The translations under genes were made by a program, and so were the position numbers. Of a stretch of DNA of 47,055 nucleotides, positions 2,285 to 30,690 are shown piece after piece (positions within the stretch are counted from its first letter, which is position 1; each line of letters opens with the position of its first letter). This DNA comes from a virus, in the IMG/VR virus record IMGVR_UViG_3300011116_000553, positions 1 through 47,055 of that record; one strand, 5' to 3'. The notes under the pieces were generated by a model. That model saw nothing but the letters and a program-made list of their open reading frames with translations. It had not been told where the DNA came from and made no database searches.

Positions 2285-2494
2285 TCAGAATACTCCAAAA
2301 AAGAGTTTTCCAGTAATCGCATAAGACACTACTGCTGCTACAAATCCGAGCATCGCAAGCCTCCCATTCAAAATTTCTGCACGTTCGTTATGTGTTTCAT
2401 TTTCGTAACTCATCTTGTCTTCCTCCGTAATGTACATTTTAGGTTCTTTGGCGAACATATTTTGGCGTCCACCGTCTTCAGTTGTAATCGTCAT
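2285..2494 (-). CDS. hli: high-light-inducible protein (HLIP)
   Basis: The protein has 69 residues if it starts at ATG 2494; an upstream in-frame start at 2530 would add 12 residues, but these overlap the promoter region. The C-terminal half has the single-helix chlorophyll-binding signature ERAEILNGRLAMLGFVAAVV, with the Glu/Asn/Arg ligand pattern of the LHC superfamily, followed by a short aromatic tail. HLIPs bind chlorophyll in the thylakoid membrane and protect photosystem II during infection; phages acquired them from cyanobacteria. It has its own consensus promoter and a strong terminator, so it is a monocistronic or very short unit. Confidence 0.92.
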   Translation of the reverse strand: MTITTEDGGRQNMFAKEPKMYITEEDKMSYENETHNERAEILNGRLAMLGFVAAVVSYAITGKLFFGVF

Positions 2495-16755: not shown

Positions 16756-16785
16756 AGTATGTAACTCAGGCTCGCCACCAATTCT

Positions 16786-16887
16786 TTATCTGGAAATTGG
16801 AAACCAGGCGGCAATATCCTCACCCGCACCAGTCGGCATATTTGAAGTCCATCCGACGAGGACATAGGGGGTCTTTGGATCCACCAC
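16786..16887 (-). CDS. possible 33-residue peptide
   Basis: A GTG at 16887 opens a frame encoding VDPKTPYVLVGWTSNMPTGA and then GEDIAAWFPISR. It fills most of the 210-bp gap between the 73-residue membrane protein and the terminator. No Shine-Dalgarno sequence is visible, so this is a tentative call. The stretch is richer in G and C than its surroundings. Confidence 0.35.
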   Translation of the reverse strand: MVDPKTPYVLVGWTSNMPTGAGEDIAAWFPISR

Positions 16888-18415: not shown

Positions 18416-18428
18416 TATTTATCCAATG
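18416..18428 (-). promoter_or_regulatory. late-type element upstream of the Dps-like gene
   Basis: This is the second exact copy of CATTGGATAAATA on the minus strand. It starts at the tRNA-Met 3' end and ends about 15 bp before the Dps-like start codon. GATAAATA is one base from the T4 late box. Confidence 0.4.
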
Positions 18429-18498
18429 GCAGAGGTAGGATTTGCACCTACGACCTTCAGGGTATGAACCTGACGAACTACTACTGTTCTACTCTGCT
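18427..18498 (-). tRNA. tRNA-Met (CAT)
   Basis: A canonical class I cloverleaf of 72 nt: acceptor AGCAGAG with CTCTGCC (6 pairs plus a terminal A-C mismatch), D arm GAAC-AGTAGTA-GTTC, anticodon arm TCAGG-TTCATAC-CCTGA with CAT, a 5-nt variable loop, and T arm GTAGG-TGCAAAT-CCTAC. CCA is not encoded. The A-C first pair resembles the unpaired 1-72 of initiator tRNAs; it could also be Ile2 after C34 modification. Confidence 0.87.
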
Positions 18499-19567: not shown

Positions 19568-19639
19568 AGCGTCCGGGGGTAGTCGAAACCCCGACTTCTG
19601 GGTGGAAACCAGAGATTTGTGCCACTAAACTACGAACGC
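19568..19639 (-). tRNA. tRNA-Gly (TCC)
   Basis: A 72-nt class I cloverleaf: acceptor GCGTTCG with CGGACGC (one T-G), D arm GTTT-AGTGGCAC-AAAT, anticodon arm TCTGG-TTTCCAC-CCAGA with TCC, and T arm GGGGT-TTCGACT-ACCCC. CCA is not encoded. It reads GGA/GGG codons and lies one base after the stop of the upstream membrane protein gene. Confidence 0.9.
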
Positions 19640-23993: not shown

Positions 23994-24398
23994 TTATAAC
24001 ACATTCATTCCAATATTTAATATTACATACTCATACCCATCATACAAAATACCAGAGTAATATTCTACAGTATTCAAAACAGAAAATATATTATATTCTC
24101 TTCCATCATCAAATGGTGTTATATCTATCAAATCACCATAAGTGTTTTTCCAAATACTATGATATATCGCACATCCATAATTATCATTATCAACGTCCGT
24201 AATTAGATAATATCCACTTATCTTTTCTCCACCATAAGTATTCACATAATGATTTACATTATTGTGGCAGTTTGCGTCGGCACATAGAGGTTTAGATACT
24301 ACAGGAATTTTTAATAAAGTAGAAGAGAATTCGCAATACTTTTGAAGTTTTATTACACATTTATCTTCTGGTAGTGATATTCTAAACTTTCTTTTCAT
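23994..24398 (-). CDS. hypothetical protein with Cys/His motif
   Basis: The start at ATG 24398 gives 134 residues; a longer frame to 24419 lies inside the GIY-YIG gene. PLCADANCHNNVNHYVNTYG near residue 37 carries a C-x4-CH-x2-N motif, followed by GEKISGYYLITD and DLIDITPFDDGREYN. This C-H-N-V-Y-GG-GY pattern recurs in phage and bacterial proteins of unknown role. It overlaps the homing gene by 17 bp and ends at a strong terminator. Confidence 0.65.
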   Translation of the reverse strand: MKRKFRISLPEDKCVIKLQKYCEFSSTLLKIPVVSKPLCADANCHNNVNHYVNTYGGEKISGYYLITDVDNDNYGCAIYHSIWKNTYGDLIDITPFDDGREYNIFSVLNTVEYYSGILYDGYEYVILNIGMNVL

Positions 24399-24918
24399 TT
24401 TTTCTTTTTTCCCAGGCAAGTTTCATTTTTTCTCTTGTTTCTGAAGAATGTTTTTTACCATAAAAATGATTTTTTTCTCCCTTATGGGATTCACTTAATT
24501 TTTGTCTGGTTTCTTGCGAGATTATTTTATTATAAGTAGGATGATTTTTACCTTTTTTTGATTCACTCATTTTTCTTTTGGTTTCTTCTGTGAGGATTTT
24601 GCCTTTGTTTATTTCACTTAATTTTCTTCTAGTTTCCTCACTTCTAATAATACCAGAAGAACCTTCTCCACCATTAGTTTTATTATGAAGAATACCAGTT
24701 CCTAAATCTTTTCTACCAAACACGGCAATCATATAGATTTCGTGCTTGAATGCCTCTTCTTCTGTTAGGTTTTGTTTGAGAAAAATTATTCTGGTTTTAT
24801 CTTTAGGTGGTTGCATTTCACCTTTACACTTAAAGTATGCTCTATATTCCTTACCTTTACCAATATAATAGGGAGTCCTATCTTTACGCAAATAAGCGTA
24901 AGTATAATATTCGTTCAT
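24382..24918 (-). CDS. GIY-YIG homing endonuclease with NUMOD3 repeats
   Basis: This 178-residue protein has a GIY-YIG domain at 1-90: YTYAYLRKDRTPYYIGKGKE, then LTEEEAFKHEIYMIAVFG with the catalytic Glu, and NKTNGGEGSSG with the Asn. Four NUMOD3 DNA-binding repeats follow: SEETRRKLSEINKGK, TEETKRKMSESKKGK, SQETRQKLSESHKG and SSETREKMKLAWEKR. NUMOD3 is typical of I-TevI-like homing enzymes. It lies directly after nrdB, a common homing target region. Its start codon closes an inverted repeat with a late promoter in the loop. Confidence 0.9.
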   Translation of the reverse strand: MNEYYTYAYLRKDRTPYYIGKGKEYRAYFKCKGEMQPPKDKTRIIFLKQNLTEEEAFKHEIYMIAVFGRKDLGTGILHNKTNGGEGSSGIIRSEETRRKLSEINKGKILTEETKRKMSESKKGKNHPTYNKIISQETRQKLSESHKGEKNHFYGKKHSSETREKMKLAWEKRKNEKKV

Positions 24919-24993
24919 TGTGTCTTGGCGTTGACTTACTATTATTTATAGTAAAAAAGTGGGACTTACGCAACTATATCCGCCAAGACACAA
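24918..24993 (-). repeat. 13-bp inverted repeat enclosing a late promoter, ending at the homing-gene start
   Basis: TTGTGTCTTGGCG (24918-24930) and CGCCAAGACACAA (24981-24993) are perfect inverted copies 50 nt apart. On the minus strand the 3' arm ends at the ATG of the GIY-YIG gene. A read-through mRNA would form the hairpin; an mRNA from the enclosed late promoter would lack the 5' arm. Confidence 0.85.
24943..24950 (-). promoter_or_regulatory. T4-type late promoter inside hairpin loop
   Basis: A perfect TATAAATA on the minus strand lies in the 50-nt loop of the inverted repeat, 25 bp before the start codon of the GIY-YIG/NUMOD3 gene. Confidence 0.75.
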
Positions 24994-25036
24994 GTTGCTG
25001 CCCAATATAATATACAACTTCGGTCTCAAAAATCAA

Positions 25037-26221
25037 TTAAAGTTTAAACCCAGTAAAACTATCGTTTTTCATATCTTGTTTAATTCCACCAACCAAATAA
25101 CTTGAAATTTGAGTTTGTTGTGGTGCAACTTGAACTGATTTAGAATTAATCCAATGTTCAGTCCAAGGAAGTGGATTGTTCTTTGATGCAATATCATATT
25201 CAGGTTTCAACCCAATTGCTTTCATTCTACGATTTGCAATCCACTCAACATAATTTCCAAGTAGTTTATCATTTAAACCTATCATAGAACCATCTTTGAA
25301 CAAATATTCTGCCCATAGTTTTTCTTCATTTACACAAGTTATAAATGCGTGTCTTACCCATTCTTGTTCCTCCTTAGCAATCTTCTGCATCTCTGGATCA
25401 TCCCCATCATTCCATTTGTTGATGATATTTTGAGTGATGACAAGATGCTGATTTTCATCTCTTGCGATAAGAGAGATAATTTTGGCAGATCCCTCCATGA
25501 GTTTAAGTTCCCCAAACGCAAAAGAACACGCAAACGAGACATAAAATCTAATCCCCTCTAAAATGTTTACATTCGCAACTGCACGATATAGTTTTCGTTT
25601 TAATTCAATTCTTGCATCAGTTCCATAAGGAACACCTTCATTTGCAAATTCCCAATCATTGGAAGTTCCATAAGAATGTGCAGAATTAATAAAGTCATCA
25701 TAAGCACCAGTAACTGATGCTGCTCTTTCTAATATCTTTTCATTATTTAGAATAGTATCAAAAACTTCTGATGGATCAGAATAAACATTCTTAATAATAT
25801 AAGTATAAGATCTAGAATGTATCATTTCCATAAATTGCCATACCGTCATACATGCCTCAAGTTCTGGAAGTGAACAGTAAGGTGTAAATGCCATTCCAGG
25901 TCCACGACCTTGAACAGAGTCCAACATAATTTGATACTTCAAATTAGAAGTGAAAATATGTTTTTGTTCTGGTCTTAGTGTTTGATAATCTCCACGATCT
26001 TTTTGTAACGAGATTTCTTCTGGTCTCCAAAAGAAACCAAGTTGTTGTTGAGTTAACTTATCAAAAATTGGATACTTATAAGAATCGTATCTTTGAATTC
26101 CTAGAGGTTTTCCAAAAAACATTTGTTGCTTTTTAAAATCAACGTCATTAGTGTTAAAGACGGTTATTCCTTTGAGCATTTTTGGTGTTTGCGAGTGAAC
26201 TCTAAATTTTGCAACTTTCAC
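25037..26221 (-). CDS. nrdB: ribonucleotide reductase class I beta subunit
   Basis: With GTG 26221 as start (GGAGAAG lies 7 bp before it) the protein has 394 residues; ATG 26179 is an alternative used by many relatives. It has the R2 di-iron and radical site: IMLDSVQGRGP (Asp), LPELEACMTVWQFMEMIHSR with E-x2-H, SYTYI with the radical Tyr four residues on, then ILEGIRFYVSFACSFAF and ISLIARDENQHLVITQ with the second E...E-x2-H set. It generates the tyrosyl radical used by NrdA. It overlaps the nrdA 3' part by 20 bp. The C-terminal tail needed for NrdA binding is present. Confidence 0.95.
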   Translation of the reverse strand: MKVAKFRVHSQTPKMLKGITVFNTNDVDFKKQQMFFGKPLGIQRYDSYKYPIFDKLTQQQLGFFWRPEEISLQKDRGDYQTLRPEQKHIFTSNLKYQIMLDSVQGRGPGMAFTPYCSLPELEACMTVWQFMEMIHSRSYTYIIKNVYSDPSEVFDTILNNEKILERAASVTGAYDDFINSAHSYGTSNDWEFANEGVPYGTDARIELKRKLYRAVANVNILEGIRFYVSFACSFAFGELKLMEGSAKIISLIARDENQHLVITQNIINKWNDGDDPEMQKIAKEEQEWVRHAFITCVNEEKLWAEYLFKDGSMIGLNDKLLGNYVEWIANRRMKAIGLKPEYDIASKNNPLPWTEHWINSKSVQVAPQQTQISSYLVGGIKQDMKNDSFTGFKL

Positions 26222-27302
26222 AATCTTCTTCTCCTGAACTTAAAATTTCATTTACTAAGTCACTAATATTATTTACCTTTTCTTCTTTTGCATCATCCGT
26301 CTTCCCATCATAGGTGTTTTGATAATAAGAGGTCTTCCAACCTAATTTATATGTGGTGAGAAAATCATTTGCCATTACACTTACAGGAACTTCGTTGTCT
26401 GGATAATTTTCTGGATTATAAGACCAATTTCCCGATATTGCCTGGTCAAAAAACTTCTGCATCACGGCAACAATATTAATATATCCACGATTAGATTTCA
26501 TATCCCAAAGTAAAGTATAGTTATTTTTCAGAGTTGTGTACTGGGGAACAATTTGTTTGAGTGGTCCCTTTTTAGATTGTTTTACCGACAAATATCCACG
26601 AGGAGGTTCAATACCATTTGTTGCGTTTGATGTTACGCTACTACTTTCTGAGGGCATCTGAGCAGATAATGTGGAGTGTCTCAATCCATATTGAGATATG
26701 GATGCTCGCAGTGCTTCCCAGTCGTGTTGAAGGGGAATGTTACCAATCTCATCTACATCTTTTTTATAAGTATCAATCGGAAGAATTCCATCAGAATATT
26801 TGGTGCGTCCGAAGTATTCACAATATCCTTTTTCTTGAGCAATCTTATTAGATGCCTTAAGAAGAAAATATTGAAATGATTCCGAAAGTCCGTGAACTGC
26901 ATCCCATGCCTCTTGTGAATCATAGGCAAATCCAAGTTTGGCAAGATAATGTGCAAGACCAATAAATCCCACACCTAATGCTCTACGACGTTTTGTAAAG
27001 TTTTCTGCTGCCTTGACTGGATAATGTTGATAATCAATCAGTTCTTCAAGTCCTCTAACAACAAGGTCACAGAGTTCTTCAAGTTCTTCATCTGATTTGA
27101 TTTTACCAACATTCAATGCACTCAAAATGCAAGTTGCGATTTCTTCTGGTCCATCGTCATCAATATGCTGAAACGGTATTGTTGGAAGTGTGATTTCCAT
27201 ACAATTATGAACCAAAATATCATTTGCAAAGAAATTGTGAGTTCCTTCTACAGTTATATCATAAACTGGTATTTCTTCTTCAAGATATTCAATCTTTAAC
27301 AT
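26202..27302 (-). CDS. nrdA: split intein C-part + NrdA C-terminal part
   Basis: This 366-residue protein starts at ATG 27302, preceded by AGGAG. Residues 1-33 are an intein C-terminal fragment: IPVYDITVEGTHNFFANDIL (block F) then VHN (block G, penultimate His and last Asn). Residue 34 is the +1 Cys and begins the R1 sequence CMEITLPTIPF, equivalent to E. coli Cys439, the thiyl-radical residue. Later motifs match R1: the Cys462 equivalent (EEIATCILSALNVG), STLSAQMPSESSSVTSN, NGIEPPRGYLSVK, and the C-terminal redox pair CESCKI. It cannot work alone; protein trans-splicing with the 28025-29692 product should rebuild a 767-residue enzyme. Confidence 0.95.
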   Translation of the reverse strand: MLKIEYLEEEIPVYDITVEGTHNFFANDILVHNCMEITLPTIPFQHIDDDGPEEIATCILSALNVGKIKSDEELEELCDLVVRGLEELIDYQHYPVKAAENFTKRRRALGVGFIGLAHYLAKLGFAYDSQEAWDAVHGLSESFQYFLLKASNKIAQEKGYCEYFGRTKYSDGILPIDTYKKDVDEIGNIPLQHDWEALRASISQYGLRHSTLSAQMPSESSSVTSNATNGIEPPRGYLSVKQSKKGPLKQIVPQYTTLKNNYTLLWDMKSNRGYINIVAVMQKFFDQAISGNWSYNPENYPDNEVPVSVMANDFLTTYKLGWKTSYYQNTYDGKTDDAKEEKVNNISDLVNEILSSGEEDCESCKI

Positions 27303-27970
27303 TTTTTTCTCCTGTTTTGTTCTAAAAGTTTTCTAGCAAGTTGTCTTTGAGATTCGTCCCTGTAATAAGGATTATACACCAATTCAGTTTTTTCTTCAAT
27401 AAATTTATAATAGTTTTGGTGGTTTCCTTCAAATCTATTTTTGGAAAAACTTTTGGGAAATTTTACACCTAATTCATTAATAGCAAAATCAACTATTCTT
27501 TTTCTTCCAGCAATAAACCCATATTTTTTAGCAAACTTTACTCCAATTTCTATAAGTTGCTCGTCAGTATAACCAGAATGATTTGGATTACCGGAACCAG
27601 TATTTCTAATTATAACACCATTTCTCCACTCATCCTGGACCTCTTGAGAGCATCTTGGGAGCATCCAACCACCCGTTCCACCTGAAGTGGCATTATATCC
27701 TTTTTTAGTATCACTTTCAAAAAGGTTAATAAAATGAGATTCTTTTTCGTTGATAAGATTTTCATCTTCTGTTTGATAAGTTTCAATCACAGATAAGTCC
27801 CAACAATCTTCACCATATTTTCTAATAGCAGAATGAAATCTAAATTTAGAACCATTTTTTGCCGATGATAAATGACGATGCCAACGATGTTCCAAAGAAT
27901 ATTCAGTTTTTCCTATGTAAGGTTTTCCGTTTTTTGTATTGGTGATTTTATACACAATATATGTTTTCAT
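27296..27970 (-). CDS. GIY-YIG homing endonuclease between the two nrdA halves
   Basis: This 224-residue protein has YIVYKITNTKNGKPYIGKT (the GIY-YIG core, YKI...YIG), LEHRWHRHLSSAK with the catalytic Arg, LINEKESHFINLF with the catalytic Glu, and GYNATSGGTGG with the Asn. The C-terminal 120 residues (EQLIEIGVKFAKKYG, RKRIVDFAINELG) look like a helix-turn-helix DNA-recognition region. It sits where an endonuclease domain would be in an unsplit intein and overlaps the intein-C gene by 7 bp. A late promoter in a 14-bp stem loop lies just upstream. Confidence 0.92.
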   Translation of the reverse strand: MKTYIVYKITNTKNGKPYIGKTEYSLEHRWHRHLSSAKNGSKFRFHSAIRKYGEDCWDLSVIETYQTEDENLINEKESHFINLFESDTKKGYNATSGGTGGWMLPRCSQEVQDEWRNGVIIRNTGSGNPNHSGYTDEQLIEIGVKFAKKYGFIAGRKRIVDFAINELGVKFPKSFSKNRFEGNHQNYYKFIEEKTELVYNPYYRDESQRQLARKLLEQNRRKKC

Positions 27971-27971
27971 A

Positions 27972-28025
27972 ATAGGAAGTGTAATCTCATAACTATTTAT
28001 AAGATATAGACATTACACTCCCTAT
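27972..28025 (-). repeat. 14-bp inverted repeat enclosing a late promoter, ending at the homing-gene start
   Basis: ATAGGAAGTGTAAT (27972-27985) and ATTACACTCCCTAT (28012-28025) pair along 14 positions, with one G-U pair in the minus-strand RNA. The 5' arm touches the nrdA-N stop and the 3' arm ends 1 nt before the ATG of the homing gene. The 26-nt loop holds TATAAATA. Confidence 0.85.
27994..28001 (-). promoter_or_regulatory. T4-type late promoter inside hairpin loop
   Basis: A perfect TATAAATA on the minus strand lies between the two arms of the inverted repeat, 24 bp before the GIY-YIG start codon. Confidence 0.75.
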
Positions 28026-29692
28026 CAATTAATTACCAACTCATCAGTTTCAGTTAGGTCTTTTGCCAGTACATATCCACGATTTTTCGTAAATACTTTG
28101 TGTTCTGGTGTGACTACAATACTTTTACCACTTTCTTCATCAGTAATTTTCATTACCTTTGCTTTTGGTGATGTTTCTGCAAATGCAGTTATTGGTGCCC
28201 ATTTATTCTCACCAGTTTCAATATCATATGAAAGAACTTCAAGATTTTTAACAAATAAATTATTCACATATTCGTCCAAATCTTTAATTTTAATTTCAGT
28301 CATTTTATCATTACAATCACCGACAATAGTATTGTCCGAATAATCATCAAGATTATGTTTGATCCAAATCAAAGTGTTTCCGGAAACACAAAGATTACTC
28401 ATATTTACCGTATCCTTAAAGGAACTATGAGAGTTACAATGATCTATATTCATAATATAAATACGACCGGTTTCTGCTCTTTCTTTGAGAAGATTGAGAA
28501 TAAGTTCTTGTGCTTTTATTGTTTTCTTCGGAATAGATTGGTTATTTTCATACTCAATGTATAGAGAGTCAAACTTGTCTGTTCCGAAAGAATCATATAG
28601 TCCAGGTACATCGTGCGGGGAGAAAAGCGTAATCTCACCATCTTGAATAAATCTTTCATAAAATAACTTACTCAATTGAATACCATAATCTAGTTTACGA
28701 ACACGATTATCTTCTGTCCCTTTGTTATTTTTAAGAACTAATATATCTTCTATTTCCTGATGCCATATTGGAAAAAATATTGTCGAACTCCCACCTCGAA
28801 TTCCATTTTGAGTACAACACCTAACAGTTGATTCAAACTTTTTGAGGAAAGGGATAACACCTGTATGAGAAACTTCTCCTCCTCTAATCTTACTGTTGAT
28901 GCCACGAATGCGACCTGCATTGATACCTATACCAGCCCTTTGTGATACATACCTGCCAATAGCCATATCACTGCTAAAGATGCTATCTAGGGTGTCATCA
29001 ACATCAACCAGAACACAAGATGCAAATTGACGAAGTGGGGTTCTGACCCCTGCCATAATGGGGGTTGGAATGTTGATTCGGTGTCTTGAGATTGCATTAT
29101 AGTATTTACGGATGTAATCTAAACGAGTCTCTTTTGGATATTTAGAGAAGATTGTTGCCGCAATCATCATATACATAAACTGCGGAGTTTCATATACCTT
29201 TGAATTGCTGCGATCTTGTACCAAATACTTATCAACTACCTGACGGAGACCGGCATAAGTAAATAGATAATCTCTACTATGTTTAATAAAAGAACCAAGA
29301 CGATTGAGTTCTTCTTCTGTATATAATGATAAAATTTCAGAATCATAAACTCCAAGATTTACACAAGACTGAATATGTGTAAAAAAGTCTGGATGCTCTT
29401 GAATTTTTCCATATAAAGATTTACGAACAGAAAATAAAAGAAGTCTAGCAGCAACATATTGATAGTTTGGATTTTCTAAATCAATTAAATCTGATGCGGA
29501 ACGAATTAAAATCTCTTGTATTTCGGCAGTCGTAATTCCATCATAAAACTGAATTCCTGATTGTATTTCTACTTGAGATGCAGAAACACCTGCAAGGTCT
29601 CTACATGCTTCTTCAACCATGATATGAAGTTTGTCGAGATCAAGATGTTCAATCTTGCCACCTCTTTTGATAACATTTGTATTGTTGCTCAT
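28025..29692 (-). CDS. nrdA: NrdA N-terminal part + split intein N-part
   Basis: ATG 29692 overlaps the primase stop (ATGA) and gives 555 residues; a start at 29704 is possible. Residues 1-90 are an ATP-cone (KRGGKIEHLDLDKLHIMVEE) for allosteric control. The R1 barrel follows with TPLRQFASCVLVDVDDTL (Cys225 equivalent) and RIYIMNIDHCNSHSSF. After NMSNL at residue 434 the intein N-part (121 residues) begins: CVSGNTLIWI (block A) and SIVVTPEHKVFTKNRGYVLA (block B with TxxH), stopping after DELVIN. No endonuclease domain is present. The intein sits exactly before the radical cysteine. Confidence 0.95.
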   Translation of the reverse strand: MSNNTNVIKRGGKIEHLDLDKLHIMVEEACRDLAGVSASQVEIQSGIQFYDGITTAEIQEILIRSASDLIDLENPNYQYVAARLLLFSVRKSLYGKIQEHPDFFTHIQSCVNLGVYDSEILSLYTEEELNRLGSFIKHSRDYLFTYAGLRQVVDKYLVQDRSNSKVYETPQFMYMMIAATIFSKYPKETRLDYIRKYYNAISRHRINIPTPIMAGVRTPLRQFASCVLVDVDDTLDSIFSSDMAIGRYVSQRAGIGINAGRIRGINSKIRGGEVSHTGVIPFLKKFESTVRCCTQNGIRGGSSTIFFPIWHQEIEDILVLKNNKGTEDNRVRKLDYGIQLSKLFYERFIQDGEITLFSPHDVPGLYDSFGTDKFDSLYIEYENNQSIPKKTIKAQELILNLLKERAETGRIYIMNIDHCNSHSSFKDTVNMSNLCVSGNTLIWIKHNLDDYSDNTIVGDCNDKMTEIKIKDLDEYVNNLFVKNLEVLSYDIETGENKWAPITAFAETSPKAKVMKITDEESGKSIVVTPEHKVFTKNRGYVLAKDLTETDELVIN

Positions 29693-30690
29693 ACTCGTTT
29701 CCATCCGATAAGTTTTGCCTTTGCTTCTAATCCCATAAAAGTATTCCCCTTTATGATTTTTTCTACATCAAGTCCTTCTAATATCATATCATTAATATCC
29801 TTATATTTCAAGTCTTGTGGCCAAATCACCACGGGAAATTTCATATCAATTGTCTTTTCGACTCTTGCTATCATTTCTTTATTTCTTTTTTCATTATCAT
29901 AAACAAATACGAATTCAACATCATAATTTTGAATAAAAAACATATAATCCATATCAGCACCAACCATAGCAATAGCATTATTCAAAAACATACTATCAAA
30001 AGGTCCTTCAACAATATAAACTGTTCTATTCCAATCAATTGTATCCCAACCAAATACTTTTGGTTGATGTTCATCCAAAATAATTGTAATGTATTTGACC
30101 TTTGATGATTTACTTAAACTTCTACCTTGATATCCAAAGATTTCACCATCCTTTATTAAAGGAATAATAATTCTAGGTTCATCATATTGAACTGAGTTAA
30201 AGGTCTGTTTTTGTGTATTTGTCCATTCTTTAAATTTTTCACAATAATACAGTTCACGTAGAAATTTTTCTGGTATTTGTCTTTTTTCTAAATATGCTCT
30301 TGCTGGATGTTCTGTATTTAGTTCTGCTATAGTTTGAAGATTTAGACTTTTTTTCTTGAACGAAGGTTTTTCAAACTTAATATCTGGTTCTGGAGTATTT
30401 GATCTTTTTCCAGTCAAACCACTCTTATACCTTTCCATCACATACTGATCATAAAGAACAGTATCAATATCTTTTAAAAAATTAGTAAAAGTTCGTGATA
30501 CGCCACAGTTATGACACTTAAAGTTATAATCATTCTTTATTTGATATAAGTATCCACGAGCTTTGCTCTTTTGTTTTTCAGAGTCACCGCAATAGTTACA
30601 ACGGAAATTATATAAACCTGATTTTTTCTTTGTAAATTTTTGAAGCCTGGATGAAACTAATGAAATGTATTTTTCATCAATAAAACTCAT
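29689..30690 (-). CDS. 61: DNA primase, T4 gp61-type
   Basis: This 333-residue primase has an N-terminal zinc site (YNFRCNYCGDSEKQKSKARG and NDYNFKCHNCGVSRTFTNFL, i.e. C-x2-C ... C-x2-C). A linker follows, then a TOPRIM domain: GYQGRSLSKSSKVKY, VYIVEGPFDSMFLNN with the catalytic Glu, and FVFVYDNEKRNKEMI with DxD-like acids. It makes RNA primers with the gp41 helicase for lagging-strand synthesis. Its stop overlaps the nrdA start, so replication and nucleotide supply genes are co-expressed. It overlaps the upstream small gene by ATGA. Confidence 0.93.
   Translation of the reverse strand: MSFIDEKYISLVSSRLQKFTKKKSGLYNFRCNYCGDSEKQKSKARGYLYQIKNDYNFKCHNCGVSRTFTNFLKDIDTVLYDQYVMERYKSGLTGKRSNTPEPDIKFEKPSFKKKSLNLQTIAELNTEHPARAYLEKRQIPEKFLRELYYCEKFKEWTNTQKQTFNSVQYDEPRIIIPLIKDGEIFGYQGRSLSKSSKVKYITIILDEHQPKVFGWDTIDWNRTVYIVEGPFDSMFLNNAIAMVGADMDYMFFIQNYDVEFVFVYDNEKRNKEMIARVEKTIDMKFPVVIWPQDLKYKDINDMILEGLDVEKIIKGNTFMGLEAKAKLIGWKRV

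Follow-up and report, generated by a model that had tools for sequence, protein, structure and literature searches.

A folded-RNA element, apparently undescribed, that precedes unrelated DNA-cutting genes in cyanobacterial viruses and probably keeps them off until late infection

The T4 genes for I-TevI, I-TevII and I-TevIII, T4 segB and mobE of phage Aeh1 are preceded by hairpins that sequester the ribosome-binding site and have a late promoter inside them (PMC2988022, fig. 5). These hairpins, which were described gene by gene, fold over the start of the gene in read-through RNA and hide the Shine-Dalgarno sequence, and the late RNA lacks their 5' arm. The precedent for such a switch in T4 is experimental (PMC2988022, PMC3014915). 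The leader of T4 gene e (lysozyme) is similar in that a long early RNA forms an inhibitory stem and the late promoter starts inside its 5' strand (PMC3014915), but this gene is not a homing gene, and the leader has no pseudoknot and is not reused across families. Among cyanophages, the CfrI antisense RNA of S-PM2, located between psbA and a homing endonuclease gene, is an example of RNA regulation of a homing gene, although it lies on the antisense strand, is about 225 nt long and is a single case (PMC2984593). The wcaG and manA motifs are structured cis elements in cyanophage 5' UTRs (PMC2864571).

Here we describe an element found next to nrdB in a 47,055-nt IMG/VR virus sequence, which we refer to as the window. 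It resembles the T4 and Aeh1 hairpins in having a late promoter between its arms, in a read-through RNA that would fold over the start codon, in a late RNA that would lack the 5' arm, and in its association with homing endonucleases. Unlike them it is a conserved family in which a second helix (P1) crosses the first and a GTAAG loop is invariant, it is found before unrelated nucleases, and most copies of the family to which the window copy belongs (family A) have no Shine-Dalgarno sequence. It differs from the wcaG and manA motifs in its sequence and its genes, and the window copy has no match among the Rfam 15 covariance models up to E = 10. We found no description of the element in Rfam 15 or in the open-access literature searched. 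The window also contains a wcaG RNA (positions 16764–16865, minus strand; Rfam RF01761, 64.7 bits) and two tRNA genes (18427–18498 and 19568–19639, both on the minus strand).

The features of the locus all lie on the minus strand, where the stop codon of nrdB (25037–26221; Pfam Ribonuc_red_sm, E = 2.7e-54) is followed by a 31-nt spacer, the element (25005–24918) and a free-standing homing endonuclease gene with an ATG start and 178 codons' worth of protein (24382–24918). This 178-aa protein is GIY-YIG-like with NUMOD3 (Pfam NUMOD3, E = 7.9e-29; PHROG 314 homing endonuclease, E = 6e-17); Pfam makes no call for the GIY-YIG domain, and a segment TYAYLR...YYIGKG resembles its motif. An initial annotation had pointed to a perfect 13-bp inverted repeat that encloses a late promoter and abuts the ATG of the NUMOD3 gene after nrdB, and this description is accurate. 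Positions 24918–24930 and 24981–24993 are 100% complementary (13/13) with 50 nt between them, TATAAATA lies between them at 24943–24950, and the 3' arm overlaps the ATG by one base, the A. Two things had been missed, namely a 10-bp helix (P1) that crosses the repeat (P2), and the remnant of another hairpin in the 5' flank (25006–25034). In the order of transcription, the element consists of the P1 5' strand (24994–25005; RNA TTGGG-CA-GCAAC, whose first base pair is unformed in the window copy, with swaps in other copies), the P2 5' arm TTGTGTCTTGGCG (24981–24993), a junction GATATA between P2a and P1b (24975–24980; 5–8 nt long in nearly all copies), the P1 3' strand GTTGC-GTAAGT-CCCAC (24959–24974), whose GTAAG internal loop corresponds to the invariant columns G39–G43 of the family A alignment, the late promoter core TATAAATA in the loop that separates P1b from P2b, and the P2 3' arm CGCCAAGACACAA (24918–24930), which abuts the start codon and covers its first base.

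Taken alone, a 13/13 repeat is only mildly unusual and proves little, because at least one with arms 3–70 nt apart is present in 7 of 60 Markov-1 random windows. These random windows favor the reading that the repeat is a chance or terminator-like structure with no role at the start codon, a reading that we consider very improbable in view of at least 69 distinct covarying copies with tight spacing, and of the cultured phage S-SRM01, described below, in which 9 of 9 copies precede nucleases. The window also has a longer perfect inverted repeat at 2224–2260 (AAATAGGATTCAATCT, 16-bp arms about 5 nt apart), which is unrelated to the element.

Identical arms occur at the identical position in 15 IMG/VR stretches, and with broader sequence patterns we collected the at least 69 distinct copies that make up family A. 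Copies entered this set of 69 only if they had the AAATA core of the promoter, and exact complementarity was part of how P2 was identified, so conservation in the pattern columns is partly by construction; compensatory changes elsewhere are exempt from this. Family A has two crossing helices: P2, which is the repeat, and P1, in which GTTGC-GTAAG-T-CCCAC on the loop side complements GTGGG-CA-GCAAC immediately upstream of the 5' arm. Both change in a compensatory manner between copies. In P1, some copies have GTCAA/TTGAC in place of GCAAC/GTTGC, and some have GGAGG/CCTCC or TGGGG/CCCCA in place of GTGGG/CCCAC; in P2, for example, GTCTTGGCG/CGCCAAGAC is replaced by GTCTGGGGA/TCCCCAGAC. Among 28 non-redundant copies, 92.7% of cells are paired and two-sided changes are seen in 16 of the 23 pairs, in P1 and P2 alike (9 of 13 pairs in P2). 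The covariation score of these copies is 0.343, compared to 0.126 in shuffled alignments (0 of 500 shuffles reach the observed value), and falls to 0.02–0.10 when the partners are slid by 1–3 columns. The check on covariation proposed with the initial annotation thus gave comparative evidence far beyond chance. Because P1 crosses P2, the element has pseudoknot topology. There is little steric room for a complete 13-bp P2 beside P1, and the two helices may be alternatives instead of coexisting.

G-U wobbles outnumber A-C mismatches on the messenger strand (10:4 in P2 and 6:0 in P1 of family A, and 21:4 in P2 of a second family, B), which points to pairing in RNA, not DNA. This bears on the possibility that the inverted repeat is a two-sided DNA site at which the endonuclease or a phage repressor occludes the late promoter, in the manner of I-TevI autorepression. 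I-TevI does bind an operator that overlaps its own late promoter, and the arms in family A flank the promoter at near-fixed spacing. A DNA operator is nevertheless improbable, as the pairs change compensatorily to unrelated sequences, the crossing helix covaries too, G-U wobbles outnumber A-C mismatches on one strand, and the same element stands before unrelated nucleases with different DNA-binding parts.

Three other structural proposals were rejected. P1 does not qualify as an intrinsic terminator in family A, since the window has a U tract after CCCAC but other copies, such as L163, have none. A pairing between GCGTAAGT in P1b (24964–24971) and ACTTACGC in codons 5–8 of the gene (24896–24903), which are 8/8 complementary, was not retained, since GTAAG is no less invariant in front of HNH genes without ACTTACGC; the complementarity probably arises by coincidence from the conserved TYA motif. 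An HDV-like ribozyme and group I intron P3/P7, weighed on topology alone, were discarded, there being no P3 hairpin and P1a and P2a being adjacent.

The geometry of promoter and start codon is similar from copy to copy. In every copy that we collected, of families A and B, the late promoter lies in the last loop. Its AAATA core is invariant in the 28 aligned A copies and the promoter is between the arms in 69 of 69 (the AAATA core being a selection criterion), 65 of 69 copies have it 9–13 nt before P2b, and in 60 of 67 the end of P2b lies −2 to +4 nt from the start codon. In T4, late RNA begins 6 nt after TATAAATA. With this T4 geometry the predicted late transcription start in the window is at 24937, giving a 19-nt 5' UTR, and the predicted late 5' UTR is 14–20 nt long in 64 of 64 A copies. 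The calculated cost of opening the start region averages 11.2 kcal/mol in read-through RNA vs 3.2 kcal/mol in late RNA (10.5 vs 2.2 kcal/mol for the window copy). There is no Shine-Dalgarno-like 4-mer in 53 of 67 A leaders, the window's included, and it is the start codon region that is covered instead. The missing Shine-Dalgarno sequence lowers strict membership in the T4-type class of hairpins, not the mechanism. For cyanophages, the documented late motif is NATAAATA (PMC2984593).

The initial annotation had read the layout as a temporal switch, and such a switch, for which T4 provides the precedent, fits all of this anatomy, with a fold over the start in read-through RNA and a late promoter in the loop. 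We propose, with a probability of about 0.72, that the element is the regulatory module at the 5' end of a mobile homing cassette and acts in cis as an RNA switch of the I-TevI type with the late promoter in its last loop. RNA reading through from the co-directional nrdB gene upstream would contain P1 and both arms of P2, and so could form the full structure. The 13 bp of P2 would lock the sequence up to the AUG and block translation, and P1, with a loop displaying P2a, would help or tune the folding of P2. Late in infection, the sigma factor gp55 would initiate RNA at TATAAATA, beyond both P1 and P2a. Because its short leader begins inside the loop and can form neither helix, the late mRNA would escape, and the endonuclease would be made late only. 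Promoter use, repression, timing and the joint formation of P1 and P2 are the steps that we infer in this proposal.

Simple sequestering does not account for everything, since the invariant GTAAG internal loop exceeds the needs of such a stem. A possible but rather unlikely reading is a two-state switch, in which P1 with its GTAAG loop competes with P2 and repression of the read-through RNA depends on a phage or host factor that binds to the internal loop of P1. If it were true, cyanophage homing genes of all folds would share one exchangeable, factor-responsive device, in two sequence families with the same topology.

Family B has the same topology as A plus a terminator-like hairpin, and precedes other members of the same NUMOD3 protein family. 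Its parts are P1 (CCTG/CAGG, GCTT/AAGC, GTCTGT/ACAGAC and others), a P2 of 7–14 bp, the terminator-like hairpin with a U tract, TATAAATA and P2b. We counted its helices element by element with a script, since the MAFFT alignment leaves P2a of family B unaligned, and a search of one B copy against Rfam 15 gave only chance-level matches, none of them near a gathering score. In 55 of the 64 copies tabulated, only 3–5 nt separate the promoter from P2b, which is therefore the very 5' end of the late mRNA. One mechanism may not cover both families, because P2 in B ends before the start codon (by about 10–15 nt) and the B leader has a terminator-like hairpin. A trans-acting alternative is that the leader (P1 with P2a in its loop, terminator-ended in B) is released as a small RNA, which would limit the dosage of endonuclease by pairing with the late mRNA at its 5' end (P2b). 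Such an RNA would make sense of the terminator-like hairpin and U tract that precede the late promoter in nearly all B copies, and of the covariation of P2a and P2b in B even though they may be on separate RNAs, and an antisense RNA to a homing gene is already known in S-PM2. The U tract after P1b is inconsistent in family A, however, and pairing in cis is sufficient for read-through RNA. We judge antisense action in trans to be unlikely, and treat it as a serious rival for family B.

The two families alternate within the NUMOD3 protein family. Of 131 gene starts in the loci examined, 59 scored as A and 65 as B, and at least two of the other 7 resemble A or B by eye. On the protein tree the A/B label changes 18 times with loose labels and 14 times with strict ones, and well supported branches force 5 (loose) or 2 (strict) of the changes. 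The nearest relatives of the window gene in this tree are B-type. Frequent swapping between A and B is likely, its number being unsure.

Elements of this kind precede genes for GIY-YIG, HNH, endonuclease-VII-like and probable PD-(D/E)XK proteins. Family A copies are found before NUMOD3/GIY-YIG genes, a second GIY-YIG type (L172 and L197), HNH genes (L284, L179, S-B05 and L266) and, tentatively, PD-(D/E)XK-like genes (L208, L314 and L217), the last assignment being based on a reading of motifs and a shared PHROG of unknown function. One type of HNH gene has an A element in L266 and a B element in S-SRM01. An unbiased scan of the whole genome of S-SRM01 found flanking repeats of at least 8 bp at 11 of 96 NATAAATA sites, where about 3.7 are expected by chance. 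Nine are proper elements (six B, one A and two simple hairpins), and all nine of these structured copies precede nuclease genes, the gene at 56033 being assigned by a weak PHROG match. The other two matches are short, one near a structural gene and one inside a gene. The simple hairpins of S-SRM01 at 126155 and 142284 (L443 and L444) enclose NATAAATA and have endonuclease VII-like genes behind them.

Two A elements are worth noting. In S-B05 a second one (155476–155552, 47.3 bits) stands before a 163-aa hypothetical protein (155561–156052), which matches no PHROG and may be the product of an unrecognised homing gene. L249 has an intact one (about 2369–2453, minus strand) with no long ORF behind it; only a fragment, SVECPGDNW, resembling the usual C-terminus of the homing proteins follows, so here the gene looks deleted and the element left.

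A structured, conserved RNA directly 5' of nuclease genes that moves with them could also be a functional partner of the nuclease, a guide or scaffold like the omega RNA of IscB, and not a regulator. The GIY-YIG, HNH, endonuclease-VII-like and PD-(D/E)XK-like proteins have no common RNA-binding part, though, the RNA has no guide-like variable segment and is split by the late promoter, and A and B alternate within one protein family. Omega RNA and HEARO elements go with a single nuclease family, and here several unrelated nuclease folds lie downstream. We find this idea hardly credible. In the cis-acting switch that we favor, the module would travel with endonuclease genes of unrelated families and be swapped among them.

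Comparison with phages that lack the window gene, which had also been proposed, shows that the repeat is part of the insert. The element has no significant match at 80 other nrdB loci and is absent from an empty site, L083 (NrdB 88% identical), where a terminator, a late promoter and the next gene come immediately after nrdB. The homing gene is polymorphic at a fixed site: it is present in L003–L007, absent in L083, and replaced by a different homing gene in L100, L124 and L146, which have a simple hairpin around TATAAATA at the same site. The window, L004 and L007 retain the 5' arm of this older hairpin up to GTATTATAT and then switch to P1a; in the window, the remnant (25006–25034, 5' arm and promoter stub) aligns with TTTAAGACTGAA...GTATTATAT of L146, L100 and L124. 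The homing protein of L007 keeps the RRNGWSIE tail of the older gene at its end. These junction remnants and the tail indicate that an older homing cassette gave way to the A element together with its gene in a single replacement, whose left junction is at P1a. A 141-aa ORF (23994–24419, minus strand) is shared with the older cassette at the nrdB site, with 77–83% identity to the ORFs that follow the unrelated homing genes of L100, L124 and L146.

The window has another hairpin with a late promoter, at 27972–28025 (minus strand). It is a simple hairpin (arms 88% complementary, z −4.2) with TATAAATA in its loop (27994–28001), before a GIY-YIG gene (27296–27970) within the split nrdA, and L090 has an almost identical hairpin before the same gene. 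As had been stated, its arms are unrelated in sequence to those of the element at nrdB. The conclusions that had been drawn from this, that the layout and not the sequence is shared and that a switch was selected independently in this phage, are not supported: the element at nrdB belongs to a sequence-conserved family that precedes many types of nuclease in other phages, and it arrived ready-made with its homing cassette. Independent origin is possible only between the classes, i.e. simple hairpin, pseudoknot A and pseudoknot B. The nrdA gene itself (26202–29704) is fractured and has a probable split intein, as the part at 28025–29704 ends in an N-terminal intein half and the part at 26202–27302 starts with a C-terminal half (Pfam Intein_splicing); the GIY-YIG gene sits between the two parts.

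Homing genes that are overlooked or wrongly named in protein searches can be sought by means of the element; the deposited cyanophages L423, L435 and L436, for example, have NUMOD3 homing genes under the annotation 'translation initiation factor 2'. In T4, individual hairpins had already revealed homing genes with late-only expression, and here one RNA family extends across unrelated nuclease superfamilies. Its reuse, and the nine copies of the layout in S-SRM01, suggest that a transferable "off until late" module, and not each gene, is the target of selection. Whether free-standing homing genes need to be silenced early in infection becomes testable in cultured S-SRM01.
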